Under the pieces are notes generated by a model that was not told the origin of the DNA, made no database searches, and worked only from the letters and a program-made list of their open reading frames with translations. From Planctomycetota bacterium (GTDB lineage: Bacteria; Planctomycetota; Planctomycetia; Gemmatales; Gemmataceae), in NCBI GenBank assembly GCA_016873095.1, contig VGYC01000024.1:1-54334 (forward strand): DNA of 54,334 nucleotides, written 5' to 3'. Shown here piece after piece: positions 31,204 through 44,762 of this stretch. The position numbers and the translations under genes are program-made. The stretch's first letter is position 1, and each line of letters begins with the position of its first letter.

Positions 31204-34200
31204 CTATCGCAACGGTTTTTGCCACGCGTCCCTGAGTTCGTCCAGCGCCAGCCACACGATCCATTCACCGTTCGCGCCGGCGATACGCAGTCGCTTGTCG
31301 GCAACCGTCCTGCCCAGTAGCTGAACAGGAATCGAGCTTGCTCGTTCGCGAAACGTTGCTTCATGCTCGGGCATCACTTCAACGATAAAGCGCGACGTCG
31401 ACTCCGAAAACAGCTCGACGGAATCGGGCAAAGGCCGCGCTGACAGGCCGGTGACATCGGCGCCGATGTCGCCGGCAAAGGCCATCTCCGCGAGGGCGAC
31501 GGCCAGGCCGCCCTCACTCAGGTCGTGGCAGCTACGCACCAGGCCGGCAGCGATGGCCGTGTGCAGCGCTGCGAAGATCCGCGGGGCCAGTTCGAGGTCC
31601 ACTTGCGGGACTGTGCCGCCGTTCTGCCCCGTGACCAGGTGCAGGTGTGAGCCGCCCAGCTCATCGCGCGTGACGCCAATCAAGAACAAGAGATTGCCAG
31701 GTTCCTTCAGATCCATGGTGACGCAGCGGCGCACGTCCGGCACCCGGCCCATGGCGCTGATGAGCAGCGTCGGCGGGATCGTGATAGTCCTGTCGCCGGC
31801 GCGGAATTCGTTGTTCAGGCTGTCCTTGCCGCTGATGAACGGCATGTTGAAGGCCAGGGCCACGTCGCGGCAGGCCTCGGCGGCACGAACCAGCGACCCG
31901 AGCACTTCCGGCCTGTCGGTATTGCCCCAGCAGAAATTGTCGAGCAGGGCGATGAAGCGCGGATCGGCGCCAACAGCCACGACGTTGCGAACCGCCTCGT
32001 CGATGGCTGCCGCCGCCATCGCGTACGCATCGAGATCGCCGTAGCGCGGATTGATGCCGCAACCGACTGCGAGACCCTGCCGGCTGCCGAGCACGGGCGT
32101 GACGACCGCCGCGTCGCCTGGGCCGTCGTCGTGGACGCCGACCAGCGGCTTGATCACCGTGCCGCCTTGGACCTCATGGTCATACTGGCGGATGATCCAT
32201 TCCTTGCTGCACACGTTGTACGACGACATGATTGCGAGCAAAACCTCGCCGGGACGCGCGGCCGGGTGATGTTCCACGGGAGGGCGAGACTCCACGGGAG
32301 GACGAGACTCCACGGGAGCGCAAGGCTCCGCGGGAGGGCGAGGCTCCTGCCGAGCCGCACCATCGTCGAGATTCCGCAAGGTCCGTGGCTCGGCGACAGG
32401 CTCGCCTGTCCAGATCGCTCGCCTCGTAATGTCGGGTCTTCCATCGTGCAGGAAGTGCATGTCGAGGTCGGCGACCTGCTGATTGCAATAAAAGAGTCGC
32501 AGCTTGCCGGTTTCCTCGAACGTGCCGATGGCGGTGGCCTCGACATCCTCGCCACGGCACAGCGCTTCCAGCGCCGGCCAGCGCTCCGGCGGCACGGCCA
32601 GGATCATGCGTTCCTGGGCCTCGGAGATCCATATCTCGGTGTAGGATAGGCCCTCGTACTTGAGGGGTGCGCGGTCGAGGTGGACGGAAGCACCGAGCTT
32701 TTCGCCCATTTCGCCGACGGCCGAACTGAAGCCGCCCGCGCCACAATCGGTGATCGCGTGATAAAGACCCAGGTCACGCGCTTGCAAGATCACATCGAGT
32801 AACTTCTTCTCTGTGATGGCGTTGCCGATCTGCACGGCGCCGGAACTCACTGTCTCCGATTCGCTGGTCAACTCGATGGAGGAGAACGTCGCTCCGTGGA
32901 TGCCGTCGCGTCCCGTGCGGCCGCCCACGGCGACGATGAGATCGCCCGCCTTCGGCTGCTTGACGCAGCGATGGACCGGGATCAACCCGACGGTGCCGCA
33001 ATAGACCAGCGGGTTGCCCAGATAGCGCGTGTCGAAACACACCGCGCCGTTCACGGTGGGGATTCCCATGCGGTTGCCGTAGTCGCGGACGCCGGCCACC
33101 ACGCCGTGCATCACCTTGCGCGGATGAAGCACGCCGGCCGGCAAGCTTTCTGGAGGTGTGTCGGGCGGTGCAAAGCAAAAGACGTCGGTGTTGCAGATCG
33201 GCTTGGCGCCGAGTCCGGTGCCGAGCGGATCGCGGATGACACCGCCGATTCCGGTATTGGCGCCGCCATACGGCTCGATGGCCGACGGATGGTTGTGGGT
33301 CTCGACCTTGAAGCAGACGTTGAAGCAGTCGTCGAAACGAACCACGCCGGCGTTGTCCTCGAAGACGGAGACGCACCAGTCGTCCTTGCCGAGGCGGCGG
33401 CGAATCTCTTGCGTGGCGCCGAAGATGGTTTCCTTCAGGAGGTTGTCGTAGCGCCGCACGCCCCCGGCCTCGTCCGTCAATTCAATCGTCCCCTTGAGAG
33501 TCTTGTGCGAGCAATGCTCCGACCACGTCTGGGCCAGCGTCTCCAGTTCCACATCCGTCGGCTCGCGGCCCAGAGAGCGGAAATGTTTCTGGATGGCTTG
33601 CATTTCGGCGAAATTGAGCGAAAGCCCGCCCGTCCGGCTGACGGCCACGAGAGCCGTGTCGTCGATCTCGCGAATCGGCACCTCGAGCCGTTCAAACTGA
33701 TAGGAGGAGCCGGGAGTAAGATGATCGAGCCGCAGTACGCCCTCGATGACCTGTTCGATCGCCTCGTTGGCAAGGACCTTGCGAAACAGGGTATCGCGGG
33801 CATCGTCAGGCATGGGGGCCGCTGCGTAATAGCGGCGAAACGTGCGCACGCCCGTGAGGGGGACTCGCAGATAGCGGGCAGCTTCGGCGACGCTCTGGGC
33901 GACCGGGTCCATGACGCCCGGCTTGAGCAAAACCGTGGCAAATGGCTGTATTTCCCGGCCATCGACTGACAGTGACTGTACGGCACCCGCCTCGACAAGG
34001 CGGCCCAGTTCGGCCAGCGTGTCCACCAGCAACTCGTCGCGCAGCAACTCTGCTTGCTCTCGGCGTAGATTGCCTTCCAGCAGAAAGCCACGCGTGGAAC
34101 GCTCGACCAGCGGCACGGCACAGTGCGTGTGCGTCAGCAGTTCGTGCTCGCGGCAGACACGCTCGGACTCGGAATCGAAGCGGCGCGGGATTATCTCAAC

Positions 34201-34212
34201 TTCCCAGAGCAT
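31204..34212 (-). CDS. purL: phosphoribosylformylglycinamidine synthase (PurS-PurL fusion form)
   Basis: PurL converts FGAR to FGAM in purine synthesis. The 1002-residue protein has an N-terminal PurS-like part (LWEVEIIPRRFDSESERV). The catalytic region follows with SEHCSHKTLKG, ETHNHPSAIEPYGGA, DCGAGGFSSAVGEMGE and a second AIRS-type half (HDLSEGGLAVALAEMAF). No C-terminal glutaminase is fused, so PurQ must come from elsewhere. A Pro/Glu/Arg-rich insert of about 25-30 residues between the halves is encoded by tandem 18-bp repeats. The frame is open to 34422, but MLWEVEI at 34212 is the natural start. It overlaps the tyrA stop by 17 bp, indicating coupling. Confidence 0.93.
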   Translation of the reverse strand: MLWEVEIIPRRFDSESERVCREHELLTHTHCAVPLVERSTRGFLLEGNLRREQAELLRDELLVDTLAELGRLVEAGAVQSLSVDGREIQPFATVLLKPGVMDPVAQSVAEAARYLRVPLTGVRTFRRYYAAAPMPDDARDTLFRKVLANEAIEQVIEGVLRLDHLTPGSSYQFERLEVPIREIDDTALVAVSRTGGLSLNFAEMQAIQKHFRSLGREPTDVELETLAQTWSEHCSHKTLKGTIELTDEAGGVRRYDNLLKETIFGATQEIRRRLGKDDWCVSVFEDNAGVVRFDDCFNVCFKVETHNHPSAIEPYGGANTGIGGVIRDPLGTGLGAKPICNTDVFCFAPPDTPPESLPAGVLHPRKVMHGVVAGVRDYGNRMGIPTVNGAVCFDTRYLGNPLVYCGTVGLIPVHRCVKQPKAGDLIVAVGGRTGRDGIHGATFSSIELTSESETVSSGAVQIGNAITEKKLLDVILQARDLGLYHAITDCGAGGFSSAVGEMGEKLGASVHLDRAPLKYEGLSYTEIWISEAQERMILAVPPERWPALEALCRGEDVEATAIGTFEETGKLRLFYCNQQVADLDMHFLHDGRPDITRRAIWTGEPVAEPRTLRNLDDGAARQEPRPPAEPCAPVESRPPVESRPPVEHHPAARPGEVLLAIMSSYNVCSKEWIIRQYDHEVQGGTVIKPLVGVHDDGPGDAAVVTPVLGSRQGLAVGCGINPRYGDLDAYAMAAAAIDEAVRNVVAVGADPRFIALLDNFCWGNTDRPEVLGSLVRAAEACRDVALAFNMPFISGKDSLNNEFRAGDRTITIPPTLLISAMGRVPDVRRCVTMDLKEPGNLLFLIGVTRDELGGSHLHLVTGQNGGTVPQVDLELAPRIFAALHTAIAAGLVRSCHDLSEGGLAVALAEMAFAGDIGADVTGLSARPLPDSVELFSESTSRFIVEVMPEHEATFRERASSIPVQLLGRTVADKRLRIAGANGEWIVWLALDELRDAWQKPLR
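32273..32344. repeat. four tandem 18-bp repeats inside purL
   Basis: Units at 32273, 32291, 32309 and 32327 follow the pattern TCCACGGGAGGGCGAGAC with one to four changes. The array ends into TCCTGCCGAGCC. The period of 18 keeps the purL frame and adds repeated six-residue units of the type VESRPP. One reverse-frame translation (REGEAPAEP) is familiar from dispersed planctomycete repeats. Confidence 0.85.
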
Positions 34213-35035
34213 CGCGTACCTTCTTGGCTTGAGTGAGCAGCGCGTCCATCGCCTTCCAGTCGCTGGCGTCGAGAGCCTGGCCGAAGTCGCCAAGCCGATG
34301 CGTGAGCTGGCCGAGCGCGTCACGGACGGCTGTTTGATTGTGGGCGAAGATGGCCGTCCACAGTTCGGGGTCACCGGCGGCCACGCGCGTCGTGTCGCGA
34401 AACCCGGTGGCAGCCAGCTCAAACAGCTCAGCCGGCAGCAGACCCGCTAGTGCCGCGGACAGCAGGTGCGGCAGATGACTCGTCAGCGCCAGCGCCCGGT
34501 CATGCTCCTCGGGTGACATCAACTTGACACGCGCGCCCAGGGCCGTCCAGAACGCGCGAATGCGTTCCACGGCGCCGCCGTCGCTGCGCGGCGTCGGCGT
34601 GATGACTGTCCAGCGATCCTGAAACAGGTTTGCTGCCGCGAACTCCGGCCCGCGTTTCTCCGAGCCAGCCAGTGGATGGCTGCCGACGAAGTACACATGG
34701 CCTGGCAGGTGCTTGTCGATTTCCGCCACCAGCTTTGCCTTGGTGCTGCCGGCGTCCGTGAGCAGGGCCCCGGAGGGACAATGCCTGGCGGCTTCCACAG
34801 CTTGCGCGGCGATACGATCCACCGGTGTGGCAAGAACCACGATGCTGGCCTCGCGTACGGCGCCGGCGAAGTCGAGAAAACCATCATCGATCGCGTTCAG
34901 GGCACACGCACGCTCGAGACTGCCGCGTGTCCGGCCAACGCCCAGAACGCGCCGGGCGAGCCCGCGTTCCTTGGCCGCCATGCCGATCGAGCCACCGATC
35001 AAGCCGACACCAATGATGGTGAGCGTGTGGAACAT
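34196..35035 (-). CDS. tyrA: prephenate dehydrogenase
   Basis: TyrA oxidatively decarboxylates prephenate to 4-hydroxyphenylpyruvate for tyrosine synthesis. The 279-residue monofunctional form has the NAD site TIIGVGLIGGSIG (7-18) and TDAGSTKAKLV. The catalytic His lies in VGSHPLAGSE, and LTSHLPHLLS follows. No chorismate mutase or ACT domain is present. It is upstream of purL with a 17-bp overlap, although the two pathways are unrelated. Upstream lies the long intergenic region that carries the riboswitch on the other strand. Confidence 0.93.
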   Translation of the reverse strand: MFHTLTIIGVGLIGGSIGMAAKERGLARRVLGVGRTRGSLERACALNAIDDGFLDFAGAVREASIVVLATPVDRIAAQAVEAARHCPSGALLTDAGSTKAKLVAEIDKHLPGHVYFVGSHPLAGSEKRGPEFAAANLFQDRWTVITPTPRSDGGAVERIRAFWTALGARVKLMSPEEHDRALALTSHLPHLLSAALAGLLPAELFELAATGFRDTTRVAAGDPELWTAIFAHNQTAVRDALGQLTHRLGDFGQALDASDWKAMDALLTQAKKVRDALGS

Positions 35036-35284
35036 GGCGGAAGATCCGGCGTGAAACTCTCAGAAAACCGTGGCGCGTGTCTGCTGGAGATTATAGGAAC
35101 AAGAGGCGATTTTCTTGCTGTCGCGTTCGGTCAGATGGGAAAAAACAGTGAAAAAATGAGCGCGAGATTTGACTGACCTCTTTCCGCAACCTAAGGTTTC
35201 GACATCGGAGGGATCGAGGATGCTCGCGGCTGCATGGAATTGGTGGCGGCCGCGATAACTCGAAAGTTCTTCTGATAACCTCTT
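35036..35284. other. intergenic region between tyrA and the riboswitch
   Basis: No gene is supported. The promoters of tyrA (minus) and of the Tad locus (plus) should be here. A -10-like GATAAC at 35274-35279 would place transcription start near 35285, exactly at the riboswitch P1 stem, but no good -35 is seen. Confidence 0.4.
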
Positions 35285-35370
35285 CATCCTCGAAAAGGCA
35301 ATGCCGCGACCAGGCGGCAGCGCAAAGCTGCGGGTCCGTCACAACGGGCAGCCGGGCCACCGAAGGGATG
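35285..35370 (+). ncRNA. GEMM-I (cyclic-di-GMP-I) riboswitch candidate
   Basis: The segment matches the GEMM-I consensus in order. P1 is CATCCT (35285-35290) with GGGATG (35365-35370). AAAAGGCAA follows, then hairpin P2 TGCCGC/GCGGCA (35302-35307/35314-35319) and the conserved GCAAAGC (35322-35328) running into CGGGTCC. P3 is GCTGC/GCAGC (35327-35331/35348-35352) with inner CCGT/ACGG, and AGCCGGGCCACCGA closes the motif. The P2 loop is GACCAG, not the usual GNRA. The base aligned to Vc2 position 20 is G (35297), as in c-di-GMP rather than cGAMP binders. It lies 122 nt before the first Flp pilin ATG. The expression platform is unclear; CCCCTCCG at 35395-35402 could pair with the pilin ribosome binding site CGAAGGGG at 35478-35485 with one mismatch. 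Confidence 0.82.
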
Positions 35371-35492
35371 GGCGGGTGTGGGAATCGTCAATCTCCCCTC
35401 CGTTCTCTCTGCGTGCCCATTGCCAAGCCAGCGAGATGGAGTTGCCAGGCGGCCTTGAAAAAAGGGCGGCCCAATGACGAAGGGGCATTGAC

Positions 35493-35678
35493 ATGCGTGA
35501 CTTCCTGAACCGACTCGCCGAGCTCTATCGCTCGGAAGATGGACCGACGGCGGTGGAGTATGCAGTCATGCTTGCCCTGATCATCGCGGTGTGCGCCGTC
35601 TCCATCGCCGCGGTGGGTACGAACACGAACACCAAGTTTGCCAACCCGGTCTTGAGCCAGGCGCTTGGAGGTTCCTAG
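35493..35678 (+). CDS. flp: Flp-type IVb pilin 1
   Basis: A 61-residue prepilin. A short charged leader (MRDFLNRLAELYRSEDG) is cut after Gly. The mature part then starts PTAVEYAVMLALIIAV with Glu5 and Tyr6 of the Flp class, and one long hydrophobic helix continues. It would be processed by the peptidase encoded downstream and assembled into a Tad pilus. GAAGGGG seven bases upstream of the ATG is the ribosome binding site and may be masked by the riboswitch platform. A close second copy follows 108 bp later. Confidence 0.92.
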   Translation: MRDFLNRLAELYRSEDGPTAVEYAVMLALIIAVCAVSIAAVGTNTNTKFANPVLSQALGGS

Positions 35679-35786: not shown

Positions 35787-35954
35787 ATGCGTAAGTTTTT
35801 TGTGGACTTGCTGACGCGTGAAGACGGCCCGACCGCGGTTGAGTACGCCGTCATGCTGGCCCTGATCATTGTGGTGTGCATTACCGCCATCACGGCCATC
35901 GGCACCAATGTCAACACCAAGTTCAACACGGTTGCGACCACCCTCGCTTCCTAG
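35787..35954 (+). CDS. flp: Flp-type IVb pilin 2
   Basis: A 55-residue prepilin (MRKFFVDLLTREDG, then PTAVEYAVMLALIIVV) nearly identical in the cleavage site and helix to the upstream pilin. The N-terminal leader and the C-terminal tail (NTKFNTVATTLAS) differ. AAAGGAA precedes the ATG. It is a tandem duplicate. A strong hairpin sits after it, which fits a highly expressed pilin transcript that is partly separated from the rest of the locus. Confidence 0.92.
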   Translation: MRKFFVDLLTREDGPTAVEYAVMLALIIVVCITAITAIGTNVNTKFNTVATTLAS

Positions 35955-36039: not shown

Positions 36040-36094
36040 TTGTATCGTGCTTGCTTGCTGATTTTGCATCTCGGTGCGTTGGAGGATGTCGTTC

Positions 36095-36679
36095 ATGAGT
36101 CTTTTCACAGCAGCTAACTGGCCACTCCTGGTCATCTGCGCAGGTATGATCGCCGCCGCCGTCATCGACTGGTGGAAGTTCAAGGTTCCCAATCGCTTGA
36201 CGTTTCCTCTCATCATCAGCGGCTGGCTGCTTGGCGTGTGCAATAACTTTGGCCTGGGAGCCGGGGAGGGAGGTGTCGGCGCCAGCTTGCTCGGCACTCT
36301 GCTGGCCTTCGGCCTGATGCTGCCCATTTACGCCATCGGCGGCATGGGTGCCGGCGACGTCAAGATGACCATGGGCTTCGGAGCCTGGATGGGCGCGTTC
36401 TACGGTTTGCCGGATGGACTCTGGATCATCGTCTACGCATTCTGCGCCGGCACCATCGTTGGTGGTGTCATCGGCATGGCGATGATGATGCTTCGTGGGC
36501 GCTACCGGCAGAACGTGGCCAACGTGAAGGAGATTGTCGGCGACCTGTTCACATCACCCAGCATCGGCGAGGTCGCCAATCGCGCCAACAAGCGACGTCC
36601 TCGCTGGCACCGGTTGCCCTACGGCGTGCCGCTGTGCATTGGCTTTGTCGGCTATCTGATCTACCTGCACGGTTTCTGA
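36095..36679 (+). CDS. cpaA: A24 prepilin peptidase of the Tad system
   Basis: CpaA/TadV cuts Flp prepilins at the inner membrane. The 194-residue protein has several membrane helices and the two catalytic aspartates in VIDWWKFKVPN (D25) and GGMGAGDVKM (D88). It lacks the methyltransferase domain of PilD, as usual for Tad systems. TTGGAGG nine bases before the ATG at 36095 decides the start; alternative starts lie 9 and 21 bases upstream. It follows the two pilins and precedes cpaB. Confidence 0.92.
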   Translation: MSLFTAANWPLLVICAGMIAAAVIDWWKFKVPNRLTFPLIISGWLLGVCNNFGLGAGEGGVGASLLGTLLAFGLMLPIYAIGGMGAGDVKMTMGFGAWMGAFYGLPDGLWIIVYAFCAGTIVGGVIGMAMMMLRGRYRQNVANVKEIVGDLFTSPSIGEVANRANKRRPRWHRLPYGVPLCIGFVGYLIYLHGF

Positions 36680-36921: not shown

Positions 36922-37980
36922 ATGAAACCGAAAACGATGATCCTGCTGGTGATGGCGGTCACGTGCGGCCTGGGGGCTAGCTACATGACCAGCCGGTTGC
37001 TGGCCGAACGTACGCAGGAGGCGCCGGAGACCGTCAAGGTCCTGGTGGCACGCAAGGAAATGCCGACGGGCACGTCCATAACGAATCCGCCGGATGCATT
37101 CATCCCCAAGGAGTACGTACGCGGTACCGAGCCCAAGGACGCGATCGAAAGCTACGATCAGATCAAGGGCCGCGTTCTCAAGCAGCGCTTGCGTGAAGGC
37201 GATCACGTTCGTGCCGAGGACCTGATGAGCGACAAGGACGCCCTCATGCAACATCTGTTGCAGAAGGGCTACCGTGCCATCGGCCTGCGCGTCAGCATCG
37301 AGTCGATCGCAGGCGGCTTCGCCGCTTTGCCACTTTCGCGCGTGGACATCATCTCCACGGTGCGCCGCGGCGATGAGGGCAAGTCGCATTCGACGACGCT
37401 GTTGCAGAACGTTCTCGTGTTGGCGGCGGACCAGCAGACGGTGGCGGATGGCAAGGGAGCCTTGCCGGCCACGACGGTGACCGTTGCTTTGAAACCCGAA
37501 GACGTTCAGAAGGTCAACCTGGCGAAAGAAATGGGACAGCTGAGCCTGGCGCTGCGAGCTTTCGGCGACGACAAGCGCATCGACCTTGCTGCGACCACCG
37601 GCGACTCCCTGTACGGCGACCGTCGCTCCGAAAGTGAAGGGCCTGCCTTGAACGTGAAGCCGGAAGTTGTGCCAGAGGTCAAACCGGAAGCGCCAACGCC
37701 GGAGCAGGAAGCGCCAAAGTTTCGCTACCATGTGACGATCATCACCAACGGCAACAAGCAAGATCGTGTGGAATTCAAGCTGGACGAGAACAATCAGGTC
37801 ATCTCTTCGCGGCTATTGCCTCAAGAAGGAGCCGTGGTTCCGCGATTGGATCCGCCCAGCACGCCGCCGGCGATGCCGCCGTTGAATCCGGCCGTGCCGC
37901 CGCAGTTACAGCCGCCGGGCGCAACGCCCAATGGCGTTCCGCCAGGACAGGCGACGCCCGTGCCGCCGAATTTCTTTTGA
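36922..37980 (+). CDS. cpaB: Flp pilus assembly protein CpaB (RcpC-like)
   Basis: A 352-residue periplasmic protein held by an N-terminal helix (MILLVMAVTCGLGASYM). It has an SAF-like domain (VKVLVARKEMPTGTSI; GRVLKQRLREGDHV) and the CpaB/RcpC core (GYRAIGLRVSIESIAGGF; DIISTV; LLQNVLVLAAD). RcpC-type proteins act at the outer-membrane secretin. The C-terminal 60 residues are Pro-rich with many PP runs. GGAGG precedes the ATG. It is followed by the secretin gene. Confidence 0.9.
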   Translation: MKPKTMILLVMAVTCGLGASYMTSRLLAERTQEAPETVKVLVARKEMPTGTSITNPPDAFIPKEYVRGTEPKDAIESYDQIKGRVLKQRLREGDHVRAEDLMSDKDALMQHLLQKGYRAIGLRVSIESIAGGFAALPLSRVDIISTVRRGDEGKSHSTTLLQNVLVLAADQQTVADGKGALPATTVTVALKPEDVQKVNLAKEMGQLSLALRAFGDDKRIDLAATTGDSLYGDRRSESEGPALNVKPEVVPEVKPEAPTPEQEAPKFRYHVTIITNGNKQDRVEFKLDENNQVISSRLLPQEGAVVPRLDPPSTPPAMPPLNPAVPPQLQPPGATPNGVPPGQATPVPPNFF

Positions 37981-38107
37981 CCGTGTGTAGTGAGGTGTAG
38001 ACGCAGGGCGAGGGACGGAAGCCTCGCCATTGAGATTCGCAATCGCAGCGAGGGATCCAGGTGGGTGCCAGCACCTATCCTGCACATCTAATTCGAGAGG
38101 TGAAAGG

Positions 38108-39850
38108 ATGCACCGCAACAAGTGCCGATGCCTTATGATCCTGGCGCTCGCCGCTCTGGGACTCATAAGCCTGGGAGAACTGGGGCCGCATGCCGCCGCG
38201 CAACAGGTTGTCGGCGGGCCGCGCCTCGACGTACCTCTCGGCTCGACCGTCCCGTTGCAGATGACCAACAAGCAATTCATCCGGGGCGCACGCAGCGAAA
38301 ACCCGGCTATTGCCACCATCACCATCAAGGTGGACGACCCACGGACCGCGCTCGTCAAGGGCGAGAAAACCGGCATCACCAAGATCACCTTGACGGACAA
38401 CGTCGGCAATGACGAGGTCTATGAAATCTACGTCGGCAAGTCGAATGAGCAGCTGCGACAGGAATTCCTCGTTTTGGTTCGCAAGGCAATTCCAACGGCC
38501 ATCGTTGACGCCGTTCCGAGCGGTTCAACCACGATCATCACGGGCACCGTCGCCAATCCGGAGACTATCCAGTCCGTTCTCGAAATTGCCCGCGGCGTAT
38601 TCGGCGAGGCACAGCCAGGTCGCGGCATCATTAACGGCATGACGGTCGGCGGCGTGCAGCAGGTGCAGCTGGACGTAGTCGTCGCCGTCGTCAACCGCAC
38701 CGAGCTGCGCAACATGGGATTCGAATGGTTCCAGACCAGCCGGACTCAGTTCATCGGCAACACGTTCAAGAATCAAGCCCCCGGCGACTCGTTCTCGGCG
38801 GCAGGAACCCTGCTCAACGTGCTGGCGCCGATCAGCAATTTGGTGTCCACGCCCAACGCCGCTTTTGCGGTGTCCGATAGCCAGAGTTACGGATTCTTCG
38901 GGTTCCTGACGGCTCTGCGCAACGAGAATGTGGTAAAGATCATGGCCGAACCACGGGTCGTGACACTGAGCGGTCGGCCTGCTTATTTCGTGGATGGCGG
39001 CCAGACTCCCATCATCACCTCGTCGCTTGGCGGAACCAATGTCACCTACAAGAACTTCGGCACGGTTATCAATTTCTTGCCCGTGGTGCTGGGCAACGGC
39101 AAGATTCACCTGGAAGTGCAGCCGGAAATCAGCAACTTCGACAATCGCTTCGCGGTCGCCGTCGGCGGCGTCAGCCCCATCGCTGCTCCGGGTTTCAACA
39201 CCCGGGCGGCCCGCGTTGCCGTGCAGATGGAAGACGGGCAGACGCTTGCCATCGGCGGCTTGATCCAGAACGAAGTCACGGGCCAGGCCAACAAGGTTCC
39301 CTGTCTCGGCGACATGCCGTACTTCGGCTACCTGTTTCGCACCGTGAGTTACAGGGAGGAAGAGAAAGAGGTGTTGATCCTGATCACGCCGCACCTGGTT
39401 GATCCTCTGGATTGCCTGCAGATTCCCAAGCTTCTGCCTGGTCAGGAAACGCGCAGCCCCGACGACTTCGAGTTGTTCCTTGAGGGCATCCTGGAGGCGC
39501 CGCGCGGACAGCGGACCATCTGCTGTCCGGGTCATCGACCGGCGTACGTCAACTCGCCGAATAACGGTACGATTCCCGCACACGGCGCACCCGCGTTGAT
39601 GAGGCCCAGTCCGTTCCCCAACGCCATGCCGATGCCGGGCGCCGTTCCGCTGCCAGGCGGCCTCCCCGTCCCGAGTGGCGTGCCCGGAACGACGCCCCCG
39701 AATCCGTTCCCCGGCCCCAGTGACATGCTGCCGCAGGCCCCGACCCAGCGGTTGATCCAGCCCGCCGGCTCGGCCGGTTTCGAGGAAAGCACGGAGATTC
39801 TGATCCCGCAGCCGCTGCCCGCAGGGCCGCTGCTGGCTCCGGCGGAATAA
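38108..39850 (+). CDS. cpaC: type II/IV secretin CpaC (RcpA-like)
   Basis: The 580-residue outer-membrane secretin of the Tad pilus. It has a signal peptide (LMILALAALGLISLGELG) and an N-terminal pilus-associated domain (LDVPLGSTVPLQMTNKQF). A BON-like segment follows (SGSTTIITGTVANPETIQ). The secretin core spans about 195-460, with VVAVVNRTELRNMGFEW, VKIMAEPRVVTLSGRPAYF and the closing EKEVLILITPHLV. The last ~100 residues are Pro/Gly-rich and may extend outside the channel. The ATG at 38108 follows GAGAGGTGAAAGG. It ends at a strong terminator. Confidence 0.93.
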   Translation: MHRNKCRCLMILALAALGLISLGELGPHAAAQQVVGGPRLDVPLGSTVPLQMTNKQFIRGARSENPAIATITIKVDDPRTALVKGEKTGITKITLTDNVGNDEVYEIYVGKSNEQLRQEFLVLVRKAIPTAIVDAVPSGSTTIITGTVANPETIQSVLEIARGVFGEAQPGRGIINGMTVGGVQQVQLDVVVAVVNRTELRNMGFEWFQTSRTQFIGNTFKNQAPGDSFSAAGTLLNVLAPISNLVSTPNAAFAVSDSQSYGFFGFLTALRNENVVKIMAEPRVVTLSGRPAYFVDGGQTPIITSSLGGTNVTYKNFGTVINFLPVVLGNGKIHLEVQPEISNFDNRFAVAVGGVSPIAAPGFNTRAARVAVQMEDGQTLAIGGLIQNEVTGQANKVPCLGDMPYFGYLFRTVSYREEEKEVLILITPHLVDPLDCLQIPKLLPGQETRSPDDFELFLEGILEAPRGQRTICCPGHRPAYVNSPNNGTIPAHGAPALMRPSPFPNAMPMPGAVPLPGGLPVPSGVPGTTPPNPFPGPSDMLPQAPTQRLIQPAGSAGFEESTEILIPQPLPAGPLLAPAE

Positions 39851-39972: not shown

Positions 39973-40132
39973 CGAGAATTTGGATGACACCGGAAATAAT
40001 GCTACGGTTCTAGTGGTCTTAAGAGCCGTTCCGGATGCAAGCGGCTCGATGACACTTGGGGCGGGGTGGTGACCTGTTCCAAACGACTATTGCCCAGATT
40101 GTTCGAAAGGCAGCTTTTTTTCGGTGGTACCG

Positions 40133-41329
40133 ATGAAGGACGTGCAACGCGTAGCCATCGTGGATCCTTCGGATGCCACACGCGAACCGCTCCGGAACTT
40201 GCTCCTGGGGGTGGAGACGGTATGGCTCGAGGCCGAGTGTTCACGCTACGAATTCTTTATTGACGTGGCGCGGCAATCGAATCCGGATCTTGTCGTGGTG
40301 TCGCTAGACTCGGACCACGCCAAGGCCTTGCAGCTCATCTCGCACCTGGTAGGCGAATTCCCTGGTATGCCCATTCTGGCAGTGAGTGCCCGCGGCGACG
40401 GGCAATCAATTCTGCAAGCTCTACGTGCCGGTGCCAAAGAGTTCTTGACGCAACCTGTGGTGCTCGAAGAGTTGTTGATTGCATTGCAACGGCTGGCGCA
40501 GGGCCGGATCGCCAGCGACGGCACCTCGACTTCCAACGGCATCTCAAAGGTCGAATCGCTCGTGGTCGCAGTCATTGGCTCGCGCGGCGGGGTCGGCTGC
40601 ACCAGCCTGGCCGTCAACGTTGGCTGCAATCTCGCCCAGGATCCGAGACACAATGTCGCTCTCGTCGATCTCGATCTCGCGCTGGGTGACGCCGACGTTG
40701 CCCTGGACCTGATTCCGGATTATACGCTGGCGGACGTGGCCCTGAACATTGATCGGCTGGACATGACCTTTCTTCGCCGATCCTTGTGCAAGCACGACAC
40801 CGGGCTGTCACTCTTGCCTCATCCGATGCAACTGGAGGACATCGGTCTGATTCATGAAGACCATCTCCAGCGCGTCATCAATCTTCTGCGGGCAAGCTAT
40901 ACGCATCTGGTACTCGACCTGAGCAAGCGGTTCACGCCCACCGACTTCACAGCGATGCGACTGGCAGACGTTATTCTGTTGATCGCGCATCTGGAGCTGA
41001 CCAGCTTGCGCAACGTCGTTCGCATTCTGCACACGTTGCAAACTGAGGACGGCATGGCCGACAAGGTGCGTGTGGTCATCAATCGCGTCGGCTCCGAGGA
41101 CGGCGAGATTTCGCTGCCCAAAGCCGAAGAGACGATCGGGCAACCGGTCTACTGGCAAATACCCAATGACTACAAGGCCATGGTCGGATCCCGCAACGCG
41201 GGGGTGCCATTACTCAAGCACTCCCCACGCAGCAAGGCACACCTCAGCCTGGTAGGCCTGGCCAACGACTTGTGCGGCAAGGAACAGGAAACCAAAAAGG
41301 AGCGAAGGAGCTTCTTCTCGTTTAGGTAG
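40133..41329 (+). CDS. cpaE: CpaE/TadZ pilus localisation protein
   Basis: A 398-residue protein that places the Tad machine at its site. The N-terminal ~125 residues form a receiver-like domain ([24 protein letters not shown]). A ParA/MinD-like domain follows. Its Walker A is atypical, [11 protein letters not shown], with R151 and C156 where lysines are usual; [12 protein letters not shown] and a [11 protein letters not shown] acid motif are kept. Loss of Walker lysines is known for TadZ-type proteins and implies weak or no ATP hydrolysis. The ATG at 40133 is preferred over a GTG nine bases upstream. Confidence 0.9.
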
Positions 41330-41376
41330 ATATGAGTGGCACGGAGTCGGAACTCCATGTTGCCAAGGGAGTAGCC

Positions 41377-42756
41377 ATGTCGCGGCTGCAGAGTGGCTTG
41401 AAGAACCTGGGGTCATCAACCGGCAACTACAGTCGGCTTGGCGGCTTGTCACAGGCTGGCGGGCTCGATCGGAGTTCCAACAAGAGTTTCGAGGAACTCA
41501 AGCGGCTTATCCACGCGAAACTCGTGGACCAGCTCGACTTGTCGCGAGTCAGCGACCTGGCCGGTGACACGCTGCGCCGGGAAATCCGTCTTGTCGTCGA
41601 GCGCCTGTGCGATACCGAGAATCCGCTGCTCAACCGCATGGAGCGTGAGCGGCTCATCGACGAGGTACTGGACGAGACTTTTGGCTTCGGCCCGCTGGAA
41701 GTGCTGCTCAAGGATCCGACCATCAGCGATATCCTGGTCAACGGCCCGCACAAGATCTTTGTCGAGCGCCGCGGCAAGCTGGAAAAGACGGAGGTCAAGT
41801 TCCGCGACAACGAGCACTTGCTGCAGATCATCGACCGCATCGTGTCCAAGGTCGGGCGGCGTGTGGATGAAACGTCGCCGATGGTGGATGCACGCTTGCC
41901 GGACGGCTCACGCGTCAACGCCATCATTCCACCGCTGGCCCTAGACGGGCCGAGCATGAGCATACGTCGCTTCGGCGCCAACCCGCTCAAGCTCGAAGAT
42001 CTTCTGAATTTCAAGGCGTTCACGCCGGAAATCGCCATGTTGCTGGAGGCGTGCATCAAGTCGCGGATGAACATCATCATCAGTGGCGGCACCGGCTCCG
42101 GCAAGACGACCTTGCTCAACACGCTGTCCAGCTTCATTCCTCAAGACGAGCGCATCGTGACCATCGAGGACGCTGCCGAGTTGCAGCTGCAGCAAGAACA
42201 CGTGGTGCGCCTGGAAACGCGTCCGCCCAACATCGAGGGCAAGGGCGCGGTGAGTACGCGCGACCTGGTTCGAAATGCTCTGCGCATGCGCCCGGAACGC
42301 ATCATCATCGGCGAGTGCCGCGGCGCCGAGTCGCTGGACATGCTGCAGGCCATGAACACCGGGCATTCCGGCTCAATGACCACATTGCATGCCAACAGTC
42401 CGCGCGACGGCCAGGCCCGACTCGAAACCATGATCATGATGGCCGGCATGGAACTGCCCATCAAGGCCATGCGACAACAGATTTCGTCGGCCGTCGATTT
42501 GATCATCCAGGCCAATCGCCTCCAGGGTGGACCGCGCAAGGTCACATCCATCACCGAAGTGATGAGCATGGAGCAAGATACCATCATCATGCAAGAGGTT
42601 TTTCGGTTCAAGCAGCTGGGAATTGACCAGAATGGCCGGGCGTTCGGGCAATTTGAAGCGACGGGAGTGCGGCCGTCGTTTGTCAGCCGCCTCGAAGCCG
42701 CTGGCATCAAGCTGCCTTCCAACCTCTTTCAGGAAAGGGTGTTGCTACGCGATTGA
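41377..42756 (+). CDS. cpaF: Tad secretion ATPase CpaF/TadA
   Basis: The hexameric motor of pilus extension and retraction. The 459-residue protein has the N-terminal helical part ([18 protein letters not shown]). [20 protein letters not shown], typical of CpaF, follows. Walker A is [15 protein letters not shown], the Asp box [10 protein letters not shown], Walker [11 protein letters not shown], and the His box [21 protein letters not shown] six bases before the ATG at 41377 favours that start over 41332. It is followed by tadB after 91 bp. Confidence 0.95.
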
Positions 42757-42847: not shown

Positions 42848-43807
42848 ATGACACCGATTCTGATTTCATTGCTGGTGTTTGTGGCCGTGGCCGGCGTTGT
42901 CGGCCTGGTCGCTTTCGTGCTTGCCGATACTCCGAGCCGGACTGCCGACCGTCTTGACCTGTTAACCGGCCGTCGCCGCAAGGAGGACGACGAAGCAGCA
43001 TCCATTCTCAAGAAGAGCGCCTTCGAGAACGACAAACGCTCCCTGCTCCACTTGCTGACTCCCAACATTCCCAGCTTGCAGAAAATCTTGATGCAGGCGG
43101 ATTGCCATATTTCCGCGAGCACGTTGTTCGGCATTGGTCTGGTGTTGGGAGTTCTGGGCGCCACGGGCAGCTGGCTGGCGGGAGTTCCCAGCTATCTCAC
43201 GCCGCTTGCGGGTCTGGTGATGTTCGTCGTCCCTTTCGGCTGGCTGCTCAACAAACGGCGCATGCGCCTGAAAGCCTTTGCTGCCCAGTTGTCGGACGCG
43301 CTGGAATTGGTGGCCCGCGCTTTGCGCGCCGGTCATAGCCTGGCGGCCGGTATGCACGTGGTCGCCGAGGAGATGCCGTCCCCCATCGCTGACGAGTTTG
43401 GCCGGGTCTACGAGGAACAGAACCTGGGTATTCCTATTGAAGACGCGCTGCGCAGCGTGTGTGATCGCGTCCCCAACCTGGATCTGCGATTCTTCGTAAC
43501 TTCGGTATTGATTCAGCGGCAGACGGGTGGCGATCTCTCGGAGATCCTTGACAAGATCGGCTATGTCGTTCGCGAGCGGTTTCGCATCCTGGGGCAGGTG
43601 AAAGCACTGACCGCGGAGGGGCGTCTCAGCGGCATCATCCTCATTGCCCTGCCGTTCGGCTTGTTTCTCATCATGCTGCACATCAAGCCGGACTATGTCG
43701 AGAAACTGTGGACTCACCCGACCGGCGTCAAGATGGGTGTGTTTGCCCTGATCGCCCAGCTGGTGGGCGCTCTGGTGATCAAGAAGATTGTGAACATCAA
43801 GGTGTAA
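42848..43807 (+). CDS. tadB: Tad inner-membrane platform protein TadB
   Basis: A T2SSF-type platform protein of 319 residues. An N-terminal helix is followed by a pair of helices near 95-140 (LFGIGLVLGVLGATGSWLAG). The cytosolic GspF domain has LSDALELVARALRAGHSL, IADEFGRVYEEQNLG and IQRQTGGDLSEILDKI. Two C-terminal helices close the protein. It would sit in the inner membrane with TadC on the CpaF motor. The tadC start follows 13 bp after its stop. Confidence 0.93.
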   Translation: MTPILISLLVFVAVAGVVGLVAFVLADTPSRTADRLDLLTGRRRKEDDEAASILKKSAFENDKRSLLHLLTPNIPSLQKILMQADCHISASTLFGIGLVLGVLGATGSWLAGVPSYLTPLAGLVMFVVPFGWLLNKRRMRLKAFAAQLSDALELVARALRAGHSLAAGMHVVAEEMPSPIADEFGRVYEEQNLGIPIEDALRSVCDRVPNLDLRFFVTSVLIQRQTGGDLSEILDKIGYVVRERFRILGQVKALTAEGRLSGIILIALPFGLFLIMLHIKPDYVEKLWTHPTGVKMGVFALIAQLVGALVIKKIVNIKV

Positions 43808-43820
43808 ATAGGTAGCAACC

Positions 43821-44762
43821 ATGCCGTACCTGGCAGACATTATCCCGATCATGGTCTTCTTTGGGATCGTGGCAGGCATCTGGGCAATCCTGTCTGCGCT
43901 GTCGCAGCGGAACAGCCGGGCGGCGGAGCGCCTGGCGCGATTGAGCCGGCCACAATCCATGGCCGACATCGAAGACCCCAGCAGCGGCAAGAATGATCGC
44001 TTTCAAAGCATCATCGAGACAGCCAAGGCCCTGTCCTCTCCAATGATGCCGCAGACTGACGTCGAGCAGGCGGCGCTGAAAATCAAGCTGGCAAACGCCG
44101 GTTTCCGCAGCGACACGGCACCGAAGATCTACTCTGGGCTGCGCCTCGCCAGCCTGGTGACGTTTCTGGTACTGGGCATAGTGATCTTTGTTCCAGGCCG
44201 CCCCTTGAATTTCGGCACGCTGCAATGGGTAGTCTTGCTCACGGGTGTTGGCTTTTATTTACCCAGTTTGATTCTCTGGTACCTGCGAAGCAAGCGTCAG
44301 GAGGCTATCTTTCTGACGTTGCCGGACGCTTTGGACCTTTTGGTTGTGTGCGTGGAGAGTGGCCTGGGACTGGATGCGGCCATGCGCAAGGTCGTTGACG
44401 AGATGAGCGACCACGCCAAGGTCATTTGCGAAGAACTGTCGCTGGCGAATTTCCAGCTGCAAATGGGTCGCCCGCGGCGCGAGGTGCTGCACGATCTGGG
44501 CGTGCGCACCGGCGTGGACGACGTCCGCGCTTTGGCGGCAATCCTGATCCAGGCTGACCGTTTCGGTTCCAGTGTTGCCCAGGCCCTGCGCGTGCAATCT
44601 GATTCGATGCGTACGCGGCGGAAGCAAATCGCGGAAGAGAAGGCGGCCAAGACAGCCGTCCAGCTACTCTTCCCATTGATTCTGTTTATTTTTCCCGGCA
44701 TTTTCGTGGTCCTGGTGGGGCCGGCCGCCATCAACATCATGGAAAACTTGTTGAAGAACTAA
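43821..44762 (+). CDS. tadC: Tad inner-membrane platform protein TadC
   Basis: The second platform protein, 313 residues. It has an N-terminal helix (IIPIMVFFGIVAGIWAILSAL), two central helices and a GspF domain with LPDALDLLVVCVESGLGL, ADRFGSSVAQALRVQSDSM and RRKQIAEEKAAKTAVQLLFP. The last helix is LILFIFPGIFVVLVGPAAI. Gene order tadB-tadC is conserved across Tad loci. Confidence 0.93.
   Translation: MPYLADIIPIMVFFGIVAGIWAILSALSQRNSRAAERLARLSRPQSMADIEDPSSGKNDRFQSIIETAKALSSPMMPQTDVEQAALKIKLANAGFRSDTAPKIYSGLRLASLVTFLVLGIVIFVPGRPLNFGTLQWVVLLTGVGFYLPSLILWYLRSKRQEAIFLTLPDALDLLVVCVESGLGLDAAMRKVVDEMSDHAKVICEELSLANFQLQMGRPRREVLHDLGVRTGVDDVRALAAILIQADRFGSSVAQALRVQSDSMRTRRKQIAEEKAAKTAVQLLFPLILFIFPGIFVVLVGPAAINIMENLLKN

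Follow-up and report, generated by a model that had tools for sequence, protein, structure and literature searches.

Does the leader RNA of a planctomycete Tad pilus operon carry a riboswitch, which second messenger would it bind, and in which direction would it act on pilin expression? Swimming and attached cells alternate in many planctomycetes, whose control of attachment is poorly known. The window, as we call the whole 54,334-nucleotide stretch of planctomycete DNA analysed here, contains such a leader at positions 35285-35492, between flp1 and a divergent prephenate dehydrogenase gene (34196-35035, minus strand). As that gene is divergent, the leader serves flp only.

Identification of a GEMM-I aptamer

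When the whole window was scanned against Rfam at gathering thresholds, a single RNA was matched, RF01051 (c-di-GMP-I, or GEMM-I). The match spanned 35287-35364 on the plus strand, covered all 87 model positions and scored 42.0 bits against a cut-off of 35 (E = 6.6e-05, whole window against 4227 families). A search with this model had been proposed as a check in the original prediction, and its significant outcome bears out the GEMM-I identity given there; the 86-nt segment described does hold a real aptamer, but the core match is 78 nt. With P1 included, the aptamer extends over about 35279-35373. A second covariance model, R1, was built from 26 flp-linked aptamers of other planctomycete loci, with the window copy left out, and scored the window aptamer at 71 bits (E = 9.1e-19 over 756 kb). 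In a leader-only scan, the RF03167 subfamily (c-di-GMP-I-GGC) also aligned at full length, but its 38.9 bits fell short of its own cut-off, 59. Membership of RF03167 was therefore rejected and the window copy was classed under RF01051 only; other GEMMs of the same genome and of its relatives passed the RF03167 cut-off.

Conservation was examined across the flp-linked family. Near-invariant columns were defined as those at least 95% conserved in 40 other planctomycete flp-linked aptamers, and the window copy kept 34 of these 35, the sole mismatch being a U to C change in the 3′ part of the P3 base. In the family alignment, made with MAFFT and not fitted to structure, 96.6% of cells were paired and two-sided changes occurred at 15 of 26 pairs; the covariation score was 0.44, compared with 0.19 for shuffles and at most 0.11 with the partner strand slid. 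A chance resemblance might be suspected, given that the DNA is G+C-rich and the motif short. It is refuted by the E-values against all Rfam families and with the window-free model, together with the repetition of the same position in orthologous leaders, and its probability is negligible. Covariance-model evidence thus confirms that the leader RNA of the Tad pilus genes contains a genuine GEMM-I riboswitch, a sensor class for cyclic-di-GMP.

Helices, loop and predicted ligand

The three helices expected of the class were present in the expected order on the plus strand, and all pair in the window sequence. P1 (CAUCC/GGAUG, 35285-35289/35366-35370) varies compatibly in the 26 other flp-linked aptamers. 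P2 (UGCCGC/GCGGCA, 35302-35307/35314-35319) has six pairs, all Watson-Crick and different in sequence from the consensus, and is closed by the hexaloop GACCAG. P3 (35327-35357) is a hairpin whose 12 pairs are interrupted by a two-base bulge.

The P2 loop is not GNRA, as had been noted from the outset. GNRA is a common accessory contact and not a defining one. Among the P2 loops of 142 distinct aptamers, 103 were scored as GNRA, about 18 were of other kinds, including CUCG and UUCG, and 21 were unreadable. The non-GNRA loop of the window copy is therefore real and uncommon. The accompanying idea that it may weaken the tertiary contact fared less well: since non-GNRA P2 loops occur elsewhere, the odd loop alone is no proof of a weakened switch.

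The ligand contacts named for Vc2 are G20, A47 and C92 (PMC4744006). Alignment to Vc2 numbering placed their equivalents at 35297, 35324 and 35360, and all three are kept in the window copy; the other named bases were found at 35298 (G21), 35299 (C22) and 35321-35323 (C44-G45-C46). G20 is the ligand-discriminating base. Work on GEMM-Ia and GEMM-Ib associates G20 with c-di-GMP, while A at this position is typical of cGAMP types, among them the Geobacter GEMM-Ib riboswitches. The G at 35297, which the original prediction had also read, thus predicts c-di-GMP as the ligand of the window aptamer. GGDEF proteins are present, three of them with canonical GG[DE]EF.

A genuine GEMM-I fold that binds 3′,3′-cGAMP, or is promiscuous, was considered very improbable. 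The Geobacter GEMM-Ib relatives share the fold and bind cGAMP (PMC8835794), and two other flp-linked planctomycete copies have A at position 20 (L093, G027:C55:661-743; L081, G022:C322:2110-2184). Against this stand the G20 of the window copy and the NDxxGHxxGD type of the one GGDEF protein whose substrate motif was read.

The leader and its operon

Downstream of the aptamer, a single run of plus-strand genes encodes the components of a Tad pilus, in agreement with the predicted placement before a planctomycete Tad operon. The first gene, flp1 (35493-35678), encodes an Flp/Fap pilin that matched PF04964 with 24.3 bits (E = 2.7e-05), short of the curated 32.2-bit cut-off. The second, flp2 (35787-35954), scored 39.4 bits with the same family, above the cut-off, and the two pilins are 65% identical over the aligned part. 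They are followed by a prepilin peptidase of CpaA/TadV type (36086-36679, PF01478), CpaB/RcpC (36922-37980, PF16976 and PF08666), the secretin CpaC/RcpA (38030-39850, PF00263), a TadZ-like ATPase with a receiver domain and then the TadA ATPase (40124-42756, PF00072, PF01656 and PF00437), and two T2SSF proteins, TadB and TadC (42848-44762, PF00482).

The aptamer lies on the coding strand of flp1, and 122 nt separate P1 from the flp1 ATG (35493), the distance originally given. A Shine-Dalgarno-like GAAGGGG stands at 35479-35485 (plus strand). No intrinsic terminator was found between aptamer and flp1 in a scan of the window leader. An open reading frame of 58 aa (35301-35477) overlaps the aptamer and was assumed to be due to chance.

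Upstream of the aptamer, the promoter-like motif TTGACTGACCTCTTTCCGCAACCTAAGGT (35168-35196, plus strand) follows a shared pattern, TTGAC-N15..20-TANN[TG]T. Of 40 Tad leaders with a GEMM, 35 contained the pattern, at 78-197 nt upstream of the aptamer model; of 25 without one, 19 did. The pattern was written after several sequences had been viewed. Mononucleotide shuffles, which preserve only single-base composition, gave it in 0.75% of cases, and the reverse strand gave none. A generic sigma-70 promoter scan did not report the motif at 35168-35196, presumably because its second hexamer is far from TATAAT. From the position of this motif, we infer a transcription start near 35204, which would place the aptamer within the transcript.

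Occurrence in other planctomycetes

The distribution of the arrangement was determined in two surveys. The first covered 59 genomes, the window's own and 58 relatives, all 58 from outside the genus of the window's genome. RF01051 matched in 40 of the 59, and the surroundings of the matches were searched with the window's Tad proteins. Twenty-eight of 103 above-cut-off GEMMs, in 19 genomes, lay directly before flp genes, which were often followed by cpaA, cpaB, cpaC and tadZ. The second survey was an independent one, in which a CpaA alignment was used to search GTDB species genomes; it shared some genomes with the first and gave 80 loci. An aptamer was found at 40 of these, in every case on the coding strand and just upstream of flp. 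A lack of the motif in orthologous flp leaders had been named in the original prediction as a ground for abandoning it. That ground did not materialise: where a leader was present on the contig, about 40 of 65 carried the aptamer. Among the carriers are records with the names Gemmataceae, Isosphaeraceae, Thermoguttaceae and Pirellulaceae, and Blastopirellula marina DSM 3645 has the GEMM-flp/tad arrangement. The aptamer model also matched 98 of the 294 genomes in a wider sample of the phylum. By sequence comparison, GEMM-I before flp/tad is a conserved and widespread association in Planctomycetota. The planctomycete Tad arrangement proposed at the outset is thus real, but it is not peculiar to this locus.

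The association has not been static. On the CpaA tree, no fewer than 15 changes are required to explain presence of the aptamer, compared with 20 for shuffled labels, which indicates that the aptamer is partly inherited and often gained or lost. The CpaA relative of highest identity found, L147, has no aptamer at the corresponding place, and L151 has a weak copy of 37.8 bits with four mismatches at near-invariant positions. Loss or weakening in such close kin leaves some room for decay of the window copy itself, which would then be a remnant, no longer functional, of a riboswitch from an ancestral Tad leader. It is also the lowest-scoring of the seven GEMM-I matches above the RF01051 cut-off in its own genome, and its P2 loop is odd. 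A decaying copy would nevertheless be hard to reconcile with helices that are all intact, including a P2 that has diverged from consensus while keeping its pairs, or with 34 of 35 near-invariant positions, a count equal to or better than that of most copies and better than that of L151. We regard a remnant as improbable. The riboswitch class and its position before the pilin genes support control of flp/tad by c-di-GMP, and the window copy is very probably a functional riboswitch acting in cis on these genes.

Predicted expression platform

Following initiation near 35204, the aptamer would fold first, and c-di-GMP bound at G20, A47 and C92 would stabilise P1 and P2/P3. The state of the aptamer would then set flp1 expression, and the operon would follow by coupling or through a shared mRNA. 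A candidate anti-aptamer strand, CAUUGCC (35418-35424, plus strand), is complementary to the core GGCAAUG (35297-35303). In the absence of ligand, these two may pair, leaving the flp1 Shine-Dalgarno partly free. In its presence, the candidate anti-Shine-Dalgarno strand GUCAAUCUCCCCU (35387-35399, plus strand) would be released to pair with AGGGGCAUUGAC, hiding the flp1 Shine-Dalgarno; the pairing is predicted to involve 35481-35492 when the aptamer is formed.

Folds of 35206-35540 were computed free and with the aptamer enforced. The predicted pair probability of GGCAAUG with CAUUGCC reached 0.72 in the free fold and was 0 with the aptamer formed. In the latter state, GUCAAU/AUUGAC pairing was predicted at about 0.9, with the GGGG of the Shine-Dalgarno almost fully paired, and the predicted cost of forming the aptamer was about 5 kcal/mol. 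The modelled mean openness of 35481-35485 fell from 0.49 to 0.17 on aptamer formation. This drop was matched by 4 of 300 shuffles, a one-sided 1.3% from a test set up once the fold had been inspected, and 2% were as extreme in the opposite direction. By itself, the pairing between the leader and the flp1 start region was not significant (p = 0.09). Masking of the ribosome binding site is thus thermodynamically plausible, according to these models, for the window leader only.

The comparison with relatives gave a different picture. A fold test of 37 relatives showed no trend towards Shine-Dalgarno masking, with a mean openness change of 0.01. When 38 leaders were run at 37 °C, Shine-Dalgarno openness went down in four and up in three; this run used a poor Shine-Dalgarno choice for the window, whose figures above come from the separate fold with the right one. 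The candidate anti-Shine-Dalgarno strand at 35387-35399 was not conserved in relatives. General masking for the family was therefore not supported across the 38 leaders. Gating of the pilin ribosome binding site by a CCCCTCCG stretch, as originally suggested, is predicted for the window leader but lacks comparative support. Given a functional riboswitch, the fold effect in the window leader argues for a translational OFF switch, and the lack of a common trend in the 37 relatives keeps the probability of such a switch only a little above even.

The main alternative is a Rho- or translation-coupled ON switch, or an effect on transcript stability, by which c-di-GMP would raise flp/tad expression and the masking helix would be a folding accident. 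This has a substantial chance of being correct, if somewhat short of even. It would fit pili made in sessile cells, and general masking is absent in the relatives. Vc1, of class I, and the pilin-linked class II switch of Clostridioides difficile both point the same way, the latter having been found to be ON by experiment before a type IV pilin gene (PMC4744006). Platforms also vary by lineage: the Gemmatales leaders L161 and L166 each contain a long hairpin rich in G+C, and in L161 a T run comes after it. A home-made terminator scan of the relatives gave mostly weak matches. Against an ON switch are the modelled closing of the Shine-Dalgarno upon aptamer formation in the window leader and the intrinsic terminator not found there. 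Within the OFF reading, a more elaborate version, in which the platform has been rebuilt around the binding core, seems unlikely. Here, bases 25-26 would have changed from AC to UG and GGCAAUG would be captured by CAUUGCC, so that, in a switch lacking the usual tetraloop contact, c-di-GMP would turn off translation of the Tad pilin.

Relation to known riboswitches

The closest known counterparts are Vc2 and Vc1 of Vibrio cholerae (RF01051), which resemble the window copy in the three-helix aptamer, in G20, A47 and C92, and in their location in the leader of a surface-structure gene. The window copy differs in having GACCAG where Vc2/Vc1 has a GNRA tetraloop, in its target, a Tad pilin operon, and in its predicted expression platform. 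The C. difficile class II riboswitch is alike in being a c-di-GMP riboswitch before a pilin gene, but it belongs to an unrelated aptamer class, serves another type IV pilus and is found in Firmicutes. The Geobacter GEMM-Ib riboswitches differ from the window copy in ligand and in the base at position 20. A c-di-GMP riboswitch conserved before planctomycete Tad/Flp pilins was not described in the open-access titles and abstracts searched, which cover the older GEMM literature in part. The arrangement is thus a widespread use of a known riboswitch class, not a new class, and the use is apparently undescribed. If the conserved switch acts, it would couple an attachment organelle directly to c-di-GMP in Gemmatales/Isosphaerales and Pirellulales relatives alike. 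The arrangement can be tested in cultured strains, B. marina DSM 3645 (L188) being a carrier.

Other GEMM RNAs in the surveyed genomes

The window's genome has a second, canonical GEMM before a lone flp gene (L038, G000:C49:21202-21290, 74 bits), whose pilin is 86% identical to that of flp2 in the window. At another locus (L131, G051:C14:50593-51547; the same locus as L190), the whole GEMM-flp unit is tandemly duplicated, with two identical aptamers 870 bases apart. In L123, L120, L083, L041 and others, C21-G46 replaces G21-C46 (GCC...ACGG or GCT...GCGG), a compensating swap beside the ligand. Three GEMMs of the window's genome (L041, L042 and L043, on G000:C74, C11 and C111) lie near the start codons of secreted-looking proteins; inspection by eye suggested one trypsin/HtrA-like protease, one large surface protein and one subtilase-like protein.

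Among the GEMMs of the surveyed genomes, two groups stand out by a conserved 3′ extension combined with the lack of a conserved downstream gene. The first, class B, comprises 17 copies, including one in the window's genome (L040:5917-6100, minus strand; G000:C133:6148-6241). After its near-invariant linker, GGGAWGGACGGGACC / GGGAWGGACGGGACCC, come a hairpin and T run resembling a terminator, and a crude ORF call places the next predicted gene on the opposite strand in many copies. The exact pattern was absent from the window and, within a 392-genome phylum sample, occurred only in the window's own genome, the other 391 being without it. The layout is comparable to that of the Bdellovibrio merRNA (PMC3627812), and class B looks like a stand-alone c-di-GMP-binding RNA, which we offer as a lead. 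The second group, L039 (G000:C149:16503-16594) and about 20 relatives, has CGCCTTTC before the GEMM and a conserved GGGAT..GACCGGCGAAGAGCCCGTCCGTCCCC after it. In the phylum sample in which 98 of 294 genomes matched the aptamer model, where 13 candidates were scored per genome and counts are therefore lower bounds, many members of family f49 (e.g. G105, G175 and G299) had at least 12-13 GEMM matches per genome.
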